Shown here: positions 43,890 to 50,483 of the stretch, one piece after another
How positions within the stretch are numbered: the stretch's first letter is position 1
Layout: each line of letters opens with the position of its first letter
Source of the DNA: Bradyrhizobium iriomotense
GTDB taxonomy: Bacteria > Pseudomonadota > Alphaproteobacteria > Rhizobiales > Xanthobacteraceae
DNA: 64,000 bases
NCBI RefSeq assembly: GCF_018130765.1
Contig: NZ_JAFCJZ010000003.1
Span: forward strand, 248,001-312,000
Reading direction: 5' to 3'
Notes under the pieces: model-generated
The model's input: the letters and a program-made list of their open reading frames with translations, nothing else
Database searches by the model: none
What the model was told of the DNA's origin: nothing
Made by a program: the position numbers and the translations under genes

Positions 43890-45632
43890 TTACCGCAGCG
43901 GCTTCTTCAGCAGCGAGAAGCGGTCGGGATCGAGCCCCATCGAGGGCTGCAGCATCGGGGCTTCGAGGCTGGACATCGTCTTCGTGGGCGGGGCCGAGAA
44001 CACGGGATCGTTCGGAGAGGAATCGCGCTGCGAGGTGGCGCCGCGCCAGCGCTCCAGCACGGCGCTGACGAAATGCATGTCGTGACCGGCGGTGACCGAC
44101 GGTACGCTGCTGATGGTGGCTTCGCCGCGCGGCAATTGGTGTGGCGGCACCTCCTTGAAGCGCAACCGGGTCGGCAACGCGACGCCTTCGCCGAACGCCA
44201 GCACCTCGCGGGTGCCGAGCGAGGGAACGAAGGAGAGCAGGTTCGCGGCCGCATCCGACACAGCGGCGCGCAGCAGCGCCTGGTCGCGGTCGTTGGCAAG
44301 ACGCATCGTGAACAGCGTGTTGCACTGGGAGATGATGGTGGCGTCGAGCTCCGCGGGGCGCTGCGTGATGAGGCCGAGATAGACGCCGTATTTGCGGCCT
44401 TCCTTGGCGATGCGCGAGACCGCCTTGCGGGTCGGGCCGAAGCCGACATTGCGGTCGGCGGAAGCGTAGCGGTGCGCTTCCTCGCAGACGAACAGCAGCG
44501 GCGAGACGCCGTCGCTCCACAGGCCGAAATCGAAGGCCATGCGGCACAGCACCGAGACGACGGAATCGATCACTTCGGCCGGGAAGCCGGCGAGCTGCAT
44601 CACCGTCATCGGCTTGCCGTTCGCCGGCAGGCGGAACAGATGGCTGATGACCTCGGCCATGGTGTCGCCGCCGACATTGGCGTTGTCGAACATGAAGGCG
44701 TAGCGCGGGTCGTTGCGCACCGCCTCGATGCGCGAGATCAGCTTGTGATAGATGATGCGCGAGGAGCGGTTCTCCAGCTTGCCCATGCGCTCGTCGATCA
44801 GCGACAACAGGTCGACGAGGCGGTACGGCACCGGCGTGTCGACGGTGTAGCCGACCTGCTTGGGATCGATGCGCTTCAGGCCGATGCGGTCGGCGTTCTG
44901 GTACTGGGTGTAGACGCCCTTGGCGAGCGGGATCACCTCGGCGAGAATGTCGAGCTCTTCGGGCACGCCGGCGCGCCCGCCGAACAGCACGTCGACGATT
45001 TCCTCGAAATTGAACAGCCAGAACGGCAGCTTCAGGTTCCGCGGGTTCAGCACCAGCGCGCGGTCGCCGAAGCAGCGGCCATATTCGTTGTGGACGTCGA
45101 GCAGGAAAATGCGCAGGTTCGGCCGCGCCTTCAGGATCTCGTTGAGCAGCAGCGACACGCCGGTCGATTTGCCGACGCCGGTCGAGCCCAGCACGGCGAA
45201 ATGCTTGGACAGCATTTCCTCGACGTCGACATAGGCGACGACGGAGCGGTCCTGCTGGAGGAAGCCGACATTGATCTGGTCCGATCCGGTCGGCGCGTAG
45301 ATCGTGCGCAGCTCCTGGCTGGTGATCAATTCGACCGCATCTCCGATGGTCGGATAATTGGTGACGCCGCGCTGGAATTTGGCCTTGTCGGCGGCGTTCA
45401 GGATCTCGCCGAGCAGGTCGACCGAGGCGATGGCGATGTAATTGTCCGTGCTCGACAAATTCTCGCAGGAGACCTCGGTGATCATCGCGACGATGACCGA
45501 GCTGGCGCAGCGAATGCTGACGAAGCGGCCGACGGTGGCCCGAACCTCCGAGATCGGCATCTGGCTGGTCGCCAAAAGCCCGACCCGGGCGAGCGATCCG
45601 CGAACCGAAATCACGCGTCCAAAGGATGTCAC
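43890..45632 (-). CDS. HerA-like ATPase (DUF87)
   Basis: About 580 residues. An N-terminal HAS-barrel-like region (GRVISVRGSLARVG) precedes a HerA/FtsK-type ATPase with Walker A GSTGVGKST, Walker B LLFVCEEAHRY and an arginine-rich sensor stretch (GLITQRPAELD). HerA enzymes are hexameric DNA translocases that work in end resection, or in phage defence when paired with nucleases or Sir2. No nuclease gene is beside it. GTG 45632 is preferred as start; the frame also opens with TTG at 45656. Confidence 0.85.
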   Translation of the reverse strand: MTSFGRVISVRGSLARVGLLATSQMPISEVRATVGRFVSIRCASSVIVAMITEVSCENLSSTDNYIAIASVDLLGEILNAADKAKFQRGVTNYPTIGDAVELITSQELRTIYAPTGSDQINVGFLQQDRSVVAYVDVEEMLSKHFAVLGSTGVGKSTGVSLLLNEILKARPNLRIFLLDVHNEYGRCFGDRALVLNPRNLKLPFWLFNFEEIVDVLFGGRAGVPEELDILAEVIPLAKGVYTQYQNADRIGLKRIDPKQVGYTVDTPVPYRLVDLLSLIDERMGKLENRSSRIIYHKLISRIEAVRNDPRYAFMFDNANVGGDTMAEVISHLFRLPANGKPMTVMQLAGFPAEVIDSVVSVLCRMAFDFGLWSDGVSPLLFVCEEAHRYASADRNVGFGPTRKAVSRIAKEGRKYGVYLGLITQRPAELDATIISQCNTLFTMRLANDRDQALLRAAVSDAAANLLSFVPSLGTREVLAFGEGVALPTRLRFKEVPPHQLPRGEATISSVPSVTAGHDMHFVSAVLERWRGATSQRDSSPNDPVFSAPPTKTMSSLEAPMLQPSMGLDPDRFSLLKKPLR

Positions 45633-45910
45633 GATGAATGAACCTGGCAAGAGCAAGGGGTTTGGTCGGACTATGCGCGGCCGTCGCTGGACAAACGGTT
45701 AAACGGCGGGCGCGCCCGCTCCGTTAAATCCGCGGTAATTCGGTCTGAAGCTTTGTCGCGAATGGATGTTTGTGGGTGGAAACGCCGGGAAAACGCGGCA
45801 TTTCGAGGCCGGTGAGGGCCCCCGGCGCGCTAAGGAATGGTTTACCATAGACCAAAGGTCGGCCTGGAATGCGGCGCAGGCCGAGGCGACCGGCAAGGGA
45901 GACGCAGCGG

Positions 45911-46543
45911 ATGTCGAGCAGGACCGTCAAACAGCGGGTCGGCCCCGGTATCTACCTGCTTCGCTTCAAGACGCAGTACGAGCTGACGTCGACCTTCCTG
46001 CGCGTGCAGGAGCACTACGAGTCCCCCGAATTCCACGGCCGCGTGTTCTCGCTCGAGCAGTACATGGACTGGTACGCCGAGCAAAACGGTAACTTCACCT
46101 ACTACCAGGACTGGTCCGGCTTCAACGTGCCTTCGACGGCGTTCGCTCCGTTCTACTCCGGGGCGTTCGACCCGCTCTCGCGGAAGGAGAAGAGGCTGCT
46201 CGGCATGTTAGCGAGGTTGCGCGGACGCTTCTATGTGATCGGGATCTACCAGGGGGGCGGCAGCACCCTGAGGCACGAGCTCGCGCACGCGCTGTTCTTC
46301 ACCGATGCCGACTACCGCAAGCAGGTGCGCGAGGCGATGCGCTCCTACGATACGCGCGCGTTGGGGCGGCAGATCGCGAAGGCCGGCTATGCCCAACACG
46401 TCATCGAGGACGAGACCCAGGCCTATCTGATCGCGCCGTCGGGCAAGCTCGGCGCGGCATCGAAGGCGCTGCTGCCGCTGCGACGAAAGCTGAGGGCGCT
46501 GTTCCGCGAGCACGCGACGAAGCTGTCTGTGCCGGCGAGCTAG
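45911..46543 (+). CDS. Small zincin-like putative metalloprotease
   Basis: 210 residues. It contains RHELAHALFF with the HExxH zinc motif (His122, Glu123, His126) and, 40 residues on, VIEDETQAYLI with acidic residues that may supply the third ligand (gluzincin type). AGGGAG lies 9 to 14 bases before the ATG at 45911, which fixes the start. No signal peptide is visible, so it should be cytoplasmic. Its stop codon overlaps, on the opposite strand, that of the lipase-like gene (CTAG). The protein family is not known to me. Confidence 0.7.
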   Translation: MSSRTVKQRVGPGIYLLRFKTQYELTSTFLRVQEHYESPEFHGRVFSLEQYMDWYAEQNGNFTYYQDWSGFNVPSTAFAPFYSGAFDPLSRKEKRLLGMLARLRGRFYVIGIYQGGGSTLRHELAHALFFTDADYRKQVREAMRSYDTRALGRQIAKAGYAQHVIEDETQAYLIAPSGKLGAASKALLPLRRKLRALFREHATKLSVPAS

Positions 46544-47940
46544 GGGAAGCTGGTTCGGATGAATGCGATGGTTCTCGGCTGACGGAAATAATTGCAGTGC
46601 CAGACCTCTGAAGAATTGCCGAAATTCTCCACGCCCTGGATGGCGAGCGGGAAGCCCGTCGCTCCGAGGTCCGTCATTGAGGCGGTATCGACCACGAGAT
46701 CGTTGTCGCCGGGGAATATCTGGTCGGCGGCAAGATCGCCGGCGCGCAGTGCCCTGAAGTTCTTCCAGAACTGCCAGCCGGGATCCTCGGTCTCGAAATT
46801 CGACTGGACGACGAAATAGGCCGGCTGCGTCGTGCAGGGACCGAGGCGTAGCAGGTTAAGCTCGTAGTTGTTTTCGATCATGGATTGTCCGAACAGTCCC
46901 GGAATCAGGGCGACAAGACCGTCCAGGAGCGGCGTGTTCGCAAGGGTCCCGGTCACGGTCATCACCACCTCGACCAGCTTGCCGGCAACCCACAGGAACG
47001 GATTGGCGCCGCCGGCGAGCTGCAATGTCTTCTCGGCGAAGGTTCCGATATTGGAAATCAGACTTAGCGCGTGCTGGAGCTTGTCGGGGGCGGCAAGCGA
47101 GGTGCCGTGCAGCGGCGAGCCGGCAAAGACGACGCGTGTCGTGGCGGCGAGCGAGCGGCCGAAGGCCTCGAGCCACCACCGCACGATCAATCCGCCGCGG
47201 CTATGGGCGATGACGTCGATCTGTCCCGATGCATCGGCAAATGCGCGTCCGAGCTCGAGCGCATTCAGGACCGGGCTGACGGCAAGGGTCGCATGCTCGA
47301 ACACGAGGACCCGATCGTACTTTTCGGGGCCGTTCAGGGCCGCGTCGAGAAACGCCTGGCCGTCGGCCGTGGCCTCGAACTCGCCGATCATGTTGACGGC
47401 GTTGGAGAAGGTCCCATGGACAAACAACAGGGTACGACCGTTGAAGGGGCCATGGACATCGGCGGGGGCGATGACAAAGCTGGTCGGGCCACCATGCAGT
47501 TGCCGTATGTGGGAACGCAGCGACGCATCGATCGCGGAATTGAGACGCATATCGATCGCGCCGATCGCGGCGGCAGCCTTGTTGGGCTTGAGCCTCGGAA
47601 ACTCCCTGGTCAGGACCACCGTCTGGTCCGGGAGCGGCGGAGGCCCTCCGGCTCGCCGCGCCCGGCGGCGGCGCTGCGGCGCTTCCTCGCGGGCGGGAAC
47701 GCCGTCATACCAGCGCAGGACGCCGTTTTCCTCGACCAGCGAGGCCGCAAGGATCACGTCGTCGGATGTGTTGGCGGCGCGGCGCCGGCGGCGGCGCAGG
47801 CCGGCCACGGAATCCATCCTCTCGTCGTGATCGACATAGAGATGCTCGAACAAGTCGTCGTTGTCCTCGACCGCCTTGATCTGCGACAGAAAACGTCCGG
47901 GATCTTCCGCAACAAACTGTGACATGTTCGATGCCGTCAT
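46540..47940 (-). CDS. Lipase-like alpha/beta hydrolase, third gene of the CHAT operon
   Basis: 466 residues. Residues 1-160 are polar with two Arg-rich patches (about 49-54 and 90-96). The hydrolase domain follows: oxyanion loop FVHGTFSN (His175 region), nucleophile elbow IAHSRGG (Ser247), and a likely Asp/His pair at Asp414 or Asp418 (GDNDLVVD) and His448 (VWHCNYF). The layout matches lipase-like domains that I recall being attached to or near CHAT proteins. The start ATG overlaps the upstream stop (ATGA), so it is translationally coupled. Confidence 0.82.
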   Translation of the reverse strand: MTASNMSQFVAEDPGRFLSQIKAVEDNDDLFEHLYVDHDERMDSVAGLRRRRRRAANTSDDVILAASLVEENGVLRWYDGVPAREEAPQRRRRARRAGGPPPLPDQTVVLTREFPRLKPNKAAAAIGAIDMRLNSAIDASLRSHIRQLHGGPTSFVIAPADVHGPFNGRTLLFVHGTFSNAVNMIGEFEATADGQAFLDAALNGPEKYDRVLVFEHATLAVSPVLNALELGRAFADASGQIDVIAHSRGGLIVRWWLEAFGRSLAATTRVVFAGSPLHGTSLAAPDKLQHALSLISNIGTFAEKTLQLAGGANPFLWVAGKLVEVVMTVTGTLANTPLLDGLVALIPGLFGQSMIENNYELNLLRLGPCTTQPAYFVVQSNFETEDPGWQFWKNFRALRAGDLAADQIFPGDNDLVVDTASMTDLGATGFPLAIQGVENFGNSSEVWHCNYFRQPRTIAFIRTSFP

Positions 47941-49037
47941 TCGTTGATGATCGGAAGCGGGGTGACGTTCAGGGTTCGCGCGTGCTGGATGTCGAGCAGG
48001 CTGTCGAATTCCTTCGGGCTGCGCAGGTTGGCCCGTCCTTCGGTTTGCGCGTCCTTGAAGCCGTAGGCCCCGGTCAGGTAGGTGGCTTCCAGCATGACGA
48101 GATCGCCCGACGTCACATAGGCCATGATCTCCGCGTAACTCATCCTGGTGAGCCGCCAGCCGTAGGGATCGACGTAGCACAGGCCCGCATCGCGGGTCGT
48201 GGCGTCGCCGACGGTCGGTACCGTGGCGGGCACCTTCGCCACGCCCACGAAGTCGTCATGCGCCTCCTCGGACCTCCAATAGCCTACGAAGGCATGACCG
48301 GTGAGCAGAACCACGACCGGGAAGATGCCGACATATTCGAGGCACGAGGCGAGCAGCAGTGCGAGGTCGATGCAGGTGCCGGTGTTGGAGGCGACGATCT
48401 CGCTCGGCGTGCGCAGCCGCTGCGTCTGCTCCGAATAGGCCGGAGGAGGGTTGATATATTGGAGGCGATATTCGTTCACGAGCGCGGTCCAGATGGACTG
48501 GACCTGGCGATCGACCGCGTGCCGGTCATCCTGTTGATACCCGTCGAACCCCGCGCCGGGATCGTCGAGGATACCGATCAGGTAGCGCCGCGAAGCGTTG
48601 ATGATCTTCAGGATCGCCGGATCTCTCGGCAGCACGAAGGAGGGCAGCCAGGGATTGTTCTTGGTGTCGTCGAGCCATTCGTCCACGGGGATCAACGTGA
48701 CGCGTCTCGTGTCCTCGAAAGCCGTCTCTCCCCCGCAGGTCACCTTGACGTAAACGGCGGACTGCACACGTTCGTGCAATGAGCGGCTCAAGCTGGCCGT
48801 GAGAGGGATGATCACGTTGGAAGACAGCGGCAGCTGCACTTCCGTCATGACCGGGATCGTGTAGCGGTAGGGGTAGTTCTCGGCGCCGACACAGAGTTCG
48901 ACTTGAATGTAGATCGCTTCCACCGGCTTCTGGGTCAGCCGTGTCAGCGTCAATTTGTCGAGCAAGGGTCTGTTGTTGTGCAGCAGGGAGTAGTTGATTT
49001 CCTCCGCCACTTCCAGGTCGACCTGGATCGGGATCAT
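47937..49037 (-). CDS. Transglutaminase-like cysteine protease-fold protein, second gene of the CHAT operon
   Basis: 366 residues. An N-terminal beta-rich domain (about 1-120; EVQLPLSSNVIIPLTASLS) is followed by helices and a transglutaminase-like core with the full Cys-His-Asp set: Cys222 in NTGTCIDLALLLASCLEY, His248 in LTGHAFVGYW and Asp290 in CYVDPYGW. Such folds act as proteases or acyl transferases. ATG 49037 overlaps the stop of the CHAT gene, and its own stop overlaps the next start. No signal peptide is seen. Confidence 0.82.
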   Translation of the reverse strand: MIPIQVDLEVAEEINYSLLHNNRPLLDKLTLTRLTQKPVEAIYIQVELCVGAENYPYRYTIPVMTEVQLPLSSNVIIPLTASLSRSLHERVQSAVYVKVTCGGETAFEDTRRVTLIPVDEWLDDTKNNPWLPSFVLPRDPAILKIINASRRYLIGILDDPGAGFDGYQQDDRHAVDRQVQSIWTALVNEYRLQYINPPPAYSEQTQRLRTPSEIVASNTGTCIDLALLLASCLEYVGIFPVVVLLTGHAFVGYWRSEEAHDDFVGVAKVPATVPTVGDATTRDAGLCYVDPYGWRLTRMSYAEIMAYVTSGDLVMLEATYLTGAYGFKDAQTEGRANLRSPKEFDSLLDIQHARTLNVTPLPIINE

Positions 49038-50260
49038 CTGGCTGCCCTCTTTTTTCGGGGAGACGCCTTCTTGACGGAACGCGATCCCGGTGCCGACTTC
49101 CTGATCGACTCGCTGCCGGGCGCGAAGATGCTTCGTCCCATCCAGATCACGATCGACGTGCCATGCACCTTGTCCGAAGGCATCGCCTCCCACGCCTTGA
49201 GGAATGCATCCGGGATCGAAAGGGTCAATTTCTCCGTTCCGTGAAACCAGTTCCAGTAGAAGGCCTGGAAGAACAGCTCGGCCACCTCGTCGTCGATCTC
49301 GTCGAGAAATCCGAGAGCGACGTGGGCCTTGTTTTTCACCAGTTCGCGCGCGATACGCGCGCCGGAATAATAGAGATTGAGCGTGACGATACGGGGTGGC
49401 GTCGGACCCACCAGGATCTTGGCGAGGTCGCCGTAGGGAACGGGCAGCTCGCTCTCATGACCTTCGCGAAGGATCATTCCATCCGGCAGCCGTCCGGTGG
49501 AGTCGACGAGCGTGTCGAACAGCGGCTTGTTCTTGTCTTTCATGTCCACATAGAAATCGTCGACGATCCACGCGGCCTGATGGGTATCTATCCCTGTGAC
49601 GTGGATCGCCTCCCATTTCGAGCCGTGGATTTTCTTGGCGAGCTCGCTTGTCTGCGGCGTGCGGAGGATCGTCCAGTAGTCTTCGTCATCCGGTCGGTTG
49701 GGCGCACCGACTGCGACGCTGATGCGGTTTTCCTCGTCCGAGAATTCGTACTTGTCCCTGAAGCGTCCGGGCGCGCTCTCGACGAAGAGGACGCCGGTCG
49801 GCGGGTGTGGCCTGACCTGCGCCAGCCCGTTGTCGAACAGGCGGGTGATCAAGGTGCTGTGGTAACGGCCTTCCGCGCGCGTGCCGGCACTGAGCAGGTA
49901 CTCCCAGGGAATTTCGCAGGCTGCTTCGTGGATCGCGCATGTCCGCGCATCCGAGCGTTCCCAATCATGCACCTCGATCTCGATACGTTCGGCTGTCGCC
50001 AGCTCGCGCAAACGCTCGGAGGTCACGCCTACGCTTGCGAGGGCCTTGACGGCGCGCTCGGCGACGGATTTGCGCAATTCGGTATCGGAGGCCCAGCGCG
50101 AGCGTGCCCGTAGGAGATAGGTCCACTCTTGCGCTATGCGCGCGAGCAGCTCGGGATGCTTGATGTGTGTGTCTTCGACGCCTGCGGCACGAATGGTGGC
50201 GATACGCTTGTCAGGCGGCGAATTGCCGCGCGGACGCGTACTCCCTGATTTCTTGGCCAT
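49034..50260 (-). CDS. Degenerate CHAT-domain (caspase-like) protein, first gene of the operon
   Basis: 408 residues. The C-terminal 290 residues follow the CHAT outline: EIPWEYLL (116-123), strand KWEAIHVTG (215-223), and the strand IVTLNLYYSG (291-300) followed by ARELVKNKAHVALGF. In active CHAT proteases the second and third sites read H-x-x-G-H-G and L-N-A-C-x-S/T-G. Here they are IHVTGID and LNLYYSG, so the Cys and probably the catalytic His are gone. The N- and C-termini are basic. GGGGGGAG precedes ATG 50260. Confidence 0.75.
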   Translation of the reverse strand: MAKKSGSTRPRGNSPPDKRIATIRAAGVEDTHIKHPELLARIAQEWTYLLRARSRWASDTELRKSVAERAVKALASVGVTSERLRELATAERIEIEVHDWERSDARTCAIHEAACEIPWEYLLSAGTRAEGRYHSTLITRLFDNGLAQVRPHPPTGVLFVESAPGRFRDKYEFSDEENRISVAVGAPNRPDDEDYWTILRTPQTSELAKKIHGSKWEAIHVTGIDTHQAAWIVDDFYVDMKDKNKPLFDTLVDSTGRLPDGMILREGHESELPVPYGDLAKILVGPTPPRIVTLNLYYSGARIARELVKNKAHVALGFLDEIDDEVAELFFQAFYWNWFHGTEKLTLSIPDAFLKAWEAMPSDKVHGTSIVIWMGRSIFAPGSESIRKSAPGSRSVKKASPRKKRAAR

Positions 50261-50285
50261 CGAGCTCCCCCCAACTCCCGGCACA

Positions 50286-50308
50286 CCGAGCACTTTGCTT
50301 GTGCTCGG
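50286..50308 (-). promoter_or_regulatory. Hairpin in the leader of the CHAT operon
   Basis: A perfect 8-bp inverted repeat, CCGAGCAC and GTGCTCGG, with a 7-base loop, ends 26 bases before the CHAT start codon. It may be a repressor site or an mRNA stem that controls translation. Confidence 0.45.
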
Positions 50309-50445
50309 GGTCCCCAAGCTACACGTTTAGATAGCGCGTGTCCGCAAAATAAACCGTGCGTGTGCGCTTTCCCCCGGGCGTTGATGCAACGTTCGAGATT
50401 TGGGCCCGCGAGCCGTATCCCGGTAAGCCAGATCCCAGGAGTTTG

Positions 50446-50472
50446 TTGACGAGACCTAATCATTTGTACATT
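50446..50472 (+). promoter_or_regulatory. Putative sigma-70 promoter of the extradiol dioxygenase gene
   Basis: TTGACG (50446-50451) and TACATT (50467-50472) are separated by 15 bases. The -10 overlaps a large palindrome. The gene starts 128 bases downstream. Confidence 0.4.
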
Positions 50473-50483
50473 AGTACAAATGA
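50460..50483. promoter_or_regulatory. Palindromic operator A
   Basis: Arms TCATTTGTAC (50460-50469) and GTACAAATGA (50474-50483) are exact reverse complements around ATTA. The half-site CATTTGTAC fits CRTTYGTAY, shared with the two operators near 55.6 and 55.8 kb, though the spacing differs. It covers the presumed -10 of the dioxygenase promoter. Confidence 0.6.

Follow-up and report, generated by a model that had tools for sequence, protein, structure and literature searches.

A CHAT, transglutaminase-like and lipase-like gene cassette of Bradyrhizobium iriomotense as a candidate conflict system

Within a 64,000-nucleotide stretch of Bradyrhizobium iriomotense DNA (contig NZ_JAFCJZ010000003.1, positions 248,001 to 312,000; hereafter the window), three minus-strand genes running from 50260 to 46540 are arranged in the order CHAT, TG (transglutaminase-like) and LIP (lipase-like), joined by two ATGA overlaps. 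Judged from sequence comparison, the association of the three lies far beyond chance. The gene order is conserved, CHAT and TG are fused in most relatives, the nucleophile of CHAT is missing, key residues of the proteins are conserved, and the genes have been inserted into Bradyrhizobium as a unit. We regard it as an even call whether this accessory cassette acts as a switch, likely of a conflict system, in which CHAT would gate the TG thiol peptidase and TG would activate the LIP hydrolase.

Conservation of the gene set across bacteria

When species genomes were scanned with the TG profile, two TG peptide patterns yielded 91 stretches, 68 of which were confirmed; relatives without the two pattern words escape such a scan. 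The 68 loci fall into six phyla, namely Pseudomonadota, Planctomycetota, Gemmatimonadota, Acidobacteriota, Verrucomicrobiota and, with one locus, Myxococcota, many of them being metagenome bins, for which the phylum assignment may be in error. CHAT stands immediately upstream of TG in 67/68 loci, the contig of the remaining one (L035) beginning at that point, and LIP adjoins in 60, downstream of TG in 59 and upstream of CHAT in L012. Among the eight loci without LIP, the contigs of L023, L026 and L065 stop at TG or shortly behind it, and L050, L056, L060, L061 and L070 carry other genes. A candidate LIP start, taken as the in-frame ATG or GTG closest to the TG stop, overlaps that stop by 4 bases in 42 of the 60 LIP-bearing loci.

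CHAT and TG share a single open frame in 62/68 loci, and the two are encoded apart in the window and in five Bradyrhizobium loci (L035 not scored), so that the window cassette is, by its reading frames, a split form of a usually fused CHAT-TG. The initial annotation had read the overlapping genes as one functional unit and had named conserved gene order as its check; both expectations are supported across the six phyla. A quick TG-domain tree, midpoint-rooted and with many long branches, needs at least two changes for the CHAT cysteine and at least two for split versus fused (L035 not counted), and therefore demonstrates neither a single loss of the cysteine nor a single split. In the same tree, the TG proteins of L027 (a Phycisphaeraceae bin) and L052 (a Lysobacteraceae bin) cluster together (99*), which reflects either inter-phylum transfer or a binning error. 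The set is rare, since a broad sample of 398 genomes from the phylum gave a LIP match at E 1e-20 in LIP's own genome only.

Because five of the loci without LIP carry other hydrolase-type genes beside CHAT-TG, the latter looks, by gene content, like an unvarying core whose effectors can be exchanged. In L050 the place of LIP is taken by an M36-like peptidase (E 0.0013, under the Pfam cut-off), and a C14-like caspase (E 0.0029, under the cut-off) does so in L056 together with another gene that resembles an alpha/beta hydrolase by eye. Upstream of CHAT-TG, L060 carries a phosphoesterase and a C11 clostripain, and L070 a phosphoesterase and a protein with an HExxH motif (by eye). The front of L061 is similar to that of L070; downstream, L061 has a CHAT-like protein with a weak SAVED_CHAT match, the cut-off end of which resembles a nucleotide-binding part by eye. 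Downstream in L070, the products of the genes right behind the CHAT-TG gene (L070:11300-16258), namely a WXG100 protein, one of 187 aa and an FtsK-like ATPase of 1293 aa, give the locus a type VII-like secretion flavour.

Additionally, the genome of the window holds what looks like a sibling system of three same-strand genes (L103:3403-9704; G000:C23:213403-219704). Their products are a CHAT protein of 419 aa, a protein of 532 aa that matches no Pfam family, and a DUF7379-DUF7363-CHAT fusion of 1118 aa (L103:6348-9704). Like the cassette, this fusion brings a DUF7379 hydrolase and CHAT into one system; unlike it, the fusion is a single chain, shows by eye both the His and the Cys in its CHAT part and gives no TG match. 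Since CHAT is fused to TG in the present family and to kin of LIP in L103, contact between the CHAT, TG and LIP products is pointed to.

Residues of the three proteins

Residues were compared both in the scan loci and in near relatives, the latter being drawn from the best 120 of 144, 377 and 768 matches for CHAT, TG and LIP, respectively: 110 of the 120 for CHAT (300-480 aa, including the window protein), 92 of the 120 plus the query for TG (300-420 aa), and all 120 plus the query for LIP. By these counts TG and LIP retain their chemistry, and CHAT is mostly without its nucleophile.

In CHAT, His220 is invariant (110/110 near relatives, 67/67 loci). Position 297 follows strand 291-295 and precedes helix 300-309 in the structure model, and the nucleophile of caspases likewise sits after a strand and before a helix. 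It is Tyr in 104 of the near relatives, Phe in 5, Asp in 1 and Cys in none; among the 67 loci it is Cys in seven (L022, L023, L024, L026, L060, L061 and L070) and otherwise Tyr (26), Trp (19), Phe (6), His (5), Asp (2), Glu (1) or Ser (1). Measured against the CHAT/caspase family PF12770, the window protein thus has the predicted fold and the catalytic His, with Tyr297 in place of the catalytic Cys. It contains just two cysteines, 108 and 115, both in variable alignment columns, and has Phe where 103/110 near relatives keep Cys339. On the strength of the nucleophile position, we rejected CHAT as an active caspase-like protease; the initial annotation had described it as caspase-like.

TG keeps Cys222 and His248 in 68/68 loci and Glu317 in 67/67, with one gap. 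The acid had been annotated as Asp; yet Asp290, although Asp in 81/93 near relatives, is so in only 12/68 loci, and the invariant acid is Glu317. In the TG model, Cys222 begins helix 222-235, His248 begins strand 248-254 and Glu317 follows strand 313-316, the conserved arrangement of a transglutaminase fold with Cys at a helix start and His and acid on the following strands. As had been proposed, TG is the likely peptidase of the set by prediction. Sequence searches of solved structures with the three proteins and three profiles returned no usable relative.

LIP matches DUF7379 (PF24096) at E 3e-32 (112.6 bits, cut-off 33) and keeps Ser247 in 60/60 loci and Asp414 and His448 in 59/59 each, with one gap, which together identify it as a DUF7379 alpha/beta hydrolase; it is, as had been proposed, the likely effector by prediction. 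A run of at least three Arg/Lys lies 102-135 residues upstream of the HGTF motif in 44/60 LIPs, versus 8/478 same-size downstream control windows; this polybasic run may be a cleavage or membrane-docking site. Met6 is near-invariant among near relatives, so the true LIP start in the window could be 5 codons further.

An accessory insert in Bradyrhizobium

Full-length TG was found in 16/195 Bradyrhizobium genomes and full-length LIP in the same 16, adjoining by coordinates. A further 19 genomes have partial LIP-profile matches, mostly within proteins of 1100-1900 aa, and another 18 have TG-like parts of ProA-type proteins only, the open frames being 1986-2062 aa long in 16 of these and shorter in G017 and G056. 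The ProA-type loci of the genus show the Cys motif GTCLDL in 13/14, the Cys pattern of L094 matching another place, and the His motif GHAFVG in 14/14.

The flanks are a HerA gene on the left, present in 195/195 genomes, and a dioxygenase gene on the right, present in 164/195. Their gap measures 4347-4941 bp in five cases, the window and four carriers, 338-389 bp in 20 genomes without the cassette, and 15479 bp in G113, where the cassette lies within; in G189 (gap 4005) and in G171, G079 and G076 (gaps 293-355) the cassette is located elsewhere. The alignment to G068 breaks at 45848 and restarts at 50442, with 73 bp in between in G068, and that to G188 breaks at 45804 and restarts at 50442, 120 bp replacing 45805-50441. 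Because both alignments break around them, the three genes and a convergent fourth constitute one insert of about 4.6 kb (Table 1), which close relatives lack and in which no transposase was seen. The initial annotation of a compact three-gene operon stands as regards the three genes and their two ATGA overlaps, the fourth gene having been overlooked.

This fourth gene occurs in 13/195 genomes, all of them cassette carriers, with a 36-residue remnant in G147; the three carriers without it are G171, G079 and G076. Its product has no Pfam match, and its HELAH motif (HExxH) resembles that of zinc peptidases. In the Bradyrhizobium form of the cassette, it probably serves as an accessory peptidase.

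Table 1. Features of the cassette in the window
Feature	Coordinates	Strand	Remarks
CHAT gene	49034..50260	-	408 aa; predicted caspase fold; His220 (49601-49603) retained; Tyr at nucleophile position 297 (49370-49372)
TG gene	47937..49037	-	366 aa; predicted N-terminal beta-sandwich (1-120) and predicted transglutaminase-fold domain
TG residues	Cys222 48372-48374; His248 48294-48296; Glu317 48087-48089	-	
LIP gene	46540..47940	-	466 aa; DUF7379 alpha/beta hydrolase
LIP residues	Ser247 47200-47202; Asp414 46699-46701; His448 46597-46599	-	
LIP polybasic stretch, Arg49-Arg54	47779..47796	-	RRRRRR in window
CHAT/TG ATGA overlap	49034..49037	-	
TG/LIP ATGA overlap	47937..47940	-	
Convergent fourth gene	45911..46543	+	~210 aa; open frame from 45869, likely start 45911; HELAH motif; 4-base overlap with LIP tail
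Accessory insert with all four genes	45849..50441	.	4593 bp

The HerA/DUF87 ATPase at 43890-45656 is matched by the PADLOC and NCBI anti-phage HerA models; since all 195 genomes have it whether or not they carry the cassette, it is a core gene and was rejected as part of a defence locus. Just beyond the insert, a 22-base palindrome (CATTTGTACATTAGTACAAATG, window 50461-50482) is preserved at the empty site of G068 and is probably an operator of the dioxygenase gene.

Proposed mechanism, rival explanations and known systems

In the switch that we propose, CHAT, as a pseudo-caspase, would no longer cut; it would bind a ligand or peptide and restrain TG. Upon infection or a comparable attack, TG would cut or otherwise modify LIP, perhaps at the conserved polybasic N-terminal segment, and the activated LIP might hydrolyse a lipid or ester (membrane- or ester-directed activity), halting or killing the cell. 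Pseudo-caspases are known in animal immunity, and the cassette, if this holds true, would be a bacterial parallel to them, in which the caspase scaffold stays on as the regulator and another thiol enzyme cuts; with Cys-bearing (7/67 loci) and Cys-less relatives at hand, the change from protease to pseudo-protease becomes testable within one family. A wider and more tentative idea, which we hold possible while leaning against it, is that of an undescribed immune or suicide module in at least six phyla, whose dead caspase fold would serve as sensor and gate of a fused TG-fold protease that sets free interchangeable hydrolases as effectors (lipase, caspase, clostripain, metallopeptidase), the protease having been swapped and the caspase scaffold kept.

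We favour a conflict role because of the kinship of TG to the anti-phage protein ProA, the parallel to the systems of Kaur et al. 2020 (PMC7159879), as far as the consulted portion of that paper goes, and the patchy distribution. Several results weigh against it. Among 117 neighbours of 16/68 loci, Pfam families were mostly metabolic or transport (best 25 of 117 families), and no PADLOC family recurred in more than 2/117 (best 25 of 60 matched families, no control set), DpdF, PsyrT and PD-T4-6 giving single strong matches. The neighbourhoods of Roseateles/Pelomonas (13 loci) recur between genomes, as do those of Thiodiazotropha, with genes that are by eye of a housekeeping type. Accordingly, the location in defence islands that had been expected found no support in this control-free test, and for the phage-defence role once suggested the support is indirect, consisting of the kinship to ProA and the accessory distribution. 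Nor was a phage or plasmid origin of the cassette upheld: the viral contigs gave 10 pattern matches to TG and no TG relative, the phage records gave no match to LIP, and the 78 plasmid records matching TG were all below 60% identity; among the 20 listed, 15 carry a DUF3320 or DUF4011 annotation.

The same recurrent neighbourhoods, the lack of a defence family shared by more than 2 of the 117 neighbours and the failure to find a viral or phage copy would suit a non-immune stress or envelope module, in which CHAT-TG steers LIP to remodel lipids or thioesters on a physiological signal. This we consider rather unlikely, though the most serious of the alternatives, since the cassette is patchy within the genus, was cleanly inserted as a unit, has spread across phyla and has LIP replaced in five loci. 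That replacement, mostly by peptidase-like genes, also speaks against a protein-modification system, where TG would crosslink, deamidate or deglycosylate a target instead of cutting it and LIP would act in parallel or undo an acylation; we hold it improbable, as ProA and the plasmid kin, annotated DUF3320/DUF4011, have no known modification partner. Least credible of all is a cascade triggered by an active caspase-like CHAT protease. The predicted caspase fold, the invariant His220 and the Cys at the nucleophile position of 7/67 loci speak for it; they are outweighed by Tyr297, by the lack of Cys there in all 110 near relatives and in 60/67 loci, and by the other cysteines, of which Cys108 and Cys115 are variable and Cys339 is Phe.

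Compared with known systems, TG is kin to ProA (NCBIfam NF058533): residues 15-263 match its positions 1-245 at E 2.1e-59, a second, weak match lies at 251-320, and the Cys and His motifs are in common. ProA, however, is a single protein of 1903 positions, of which the window TG matches only the start, scoring 201 bits versus a cut-off of 1500 for the full-length protein. SAVED-CHAT (8tl0) and the TPR-CHAT/Csx29 of Craspase carry both catalytic residues, His and Cys, alongside SAVED or TPR parts; the window CHAT, in contrast, is without the Cys, and no SAVED or TPR part was recognised in it. The PADLOC-DB 2023 models matched none of CHAT, TG and LIP up to E 1. In the open-access literature outside bioRxiv, no paper was found on ProA as a defence protein or on DUF7379 or DUF7363, the listed titles and abstract beginnings gave no description of the CHAT, transglutaminase and lipase combination, and we met no precedent for the CHAT-TG fusion, the nucleophile-less CHAT beside an intact TG, or the four-gene insert.

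That conflict systems can pair a caspase-type protein with an alpha/beta hydrolase has been published before. In the consulted part of Kaur et al. 2020 (PMC7159879), every caspase of the VMAP conflict systems is reported to have an alpha/beta hydrolase beside it, and of the caspases in the effector position about 70% are inactive. The VMAP ternary systems resemble the cassette in their adjoining caspase-superfamily and alpha/beta-hydrolase genes, rare TG-like peptidases and many inactive caspases; they differ in having a MoxR/vWA pair beside the peptidase genes, which was unmatched in the eight window proteins scanned (around other loci, the 117 neighbours were viewed for it through the best 25 of 117 matching families), and the word CHAT is absent from that part of the text. 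The cassette unites ProA TG-type domains, CHAT proteins and DUF7379 hydrolases, which are otherwise seen separately.
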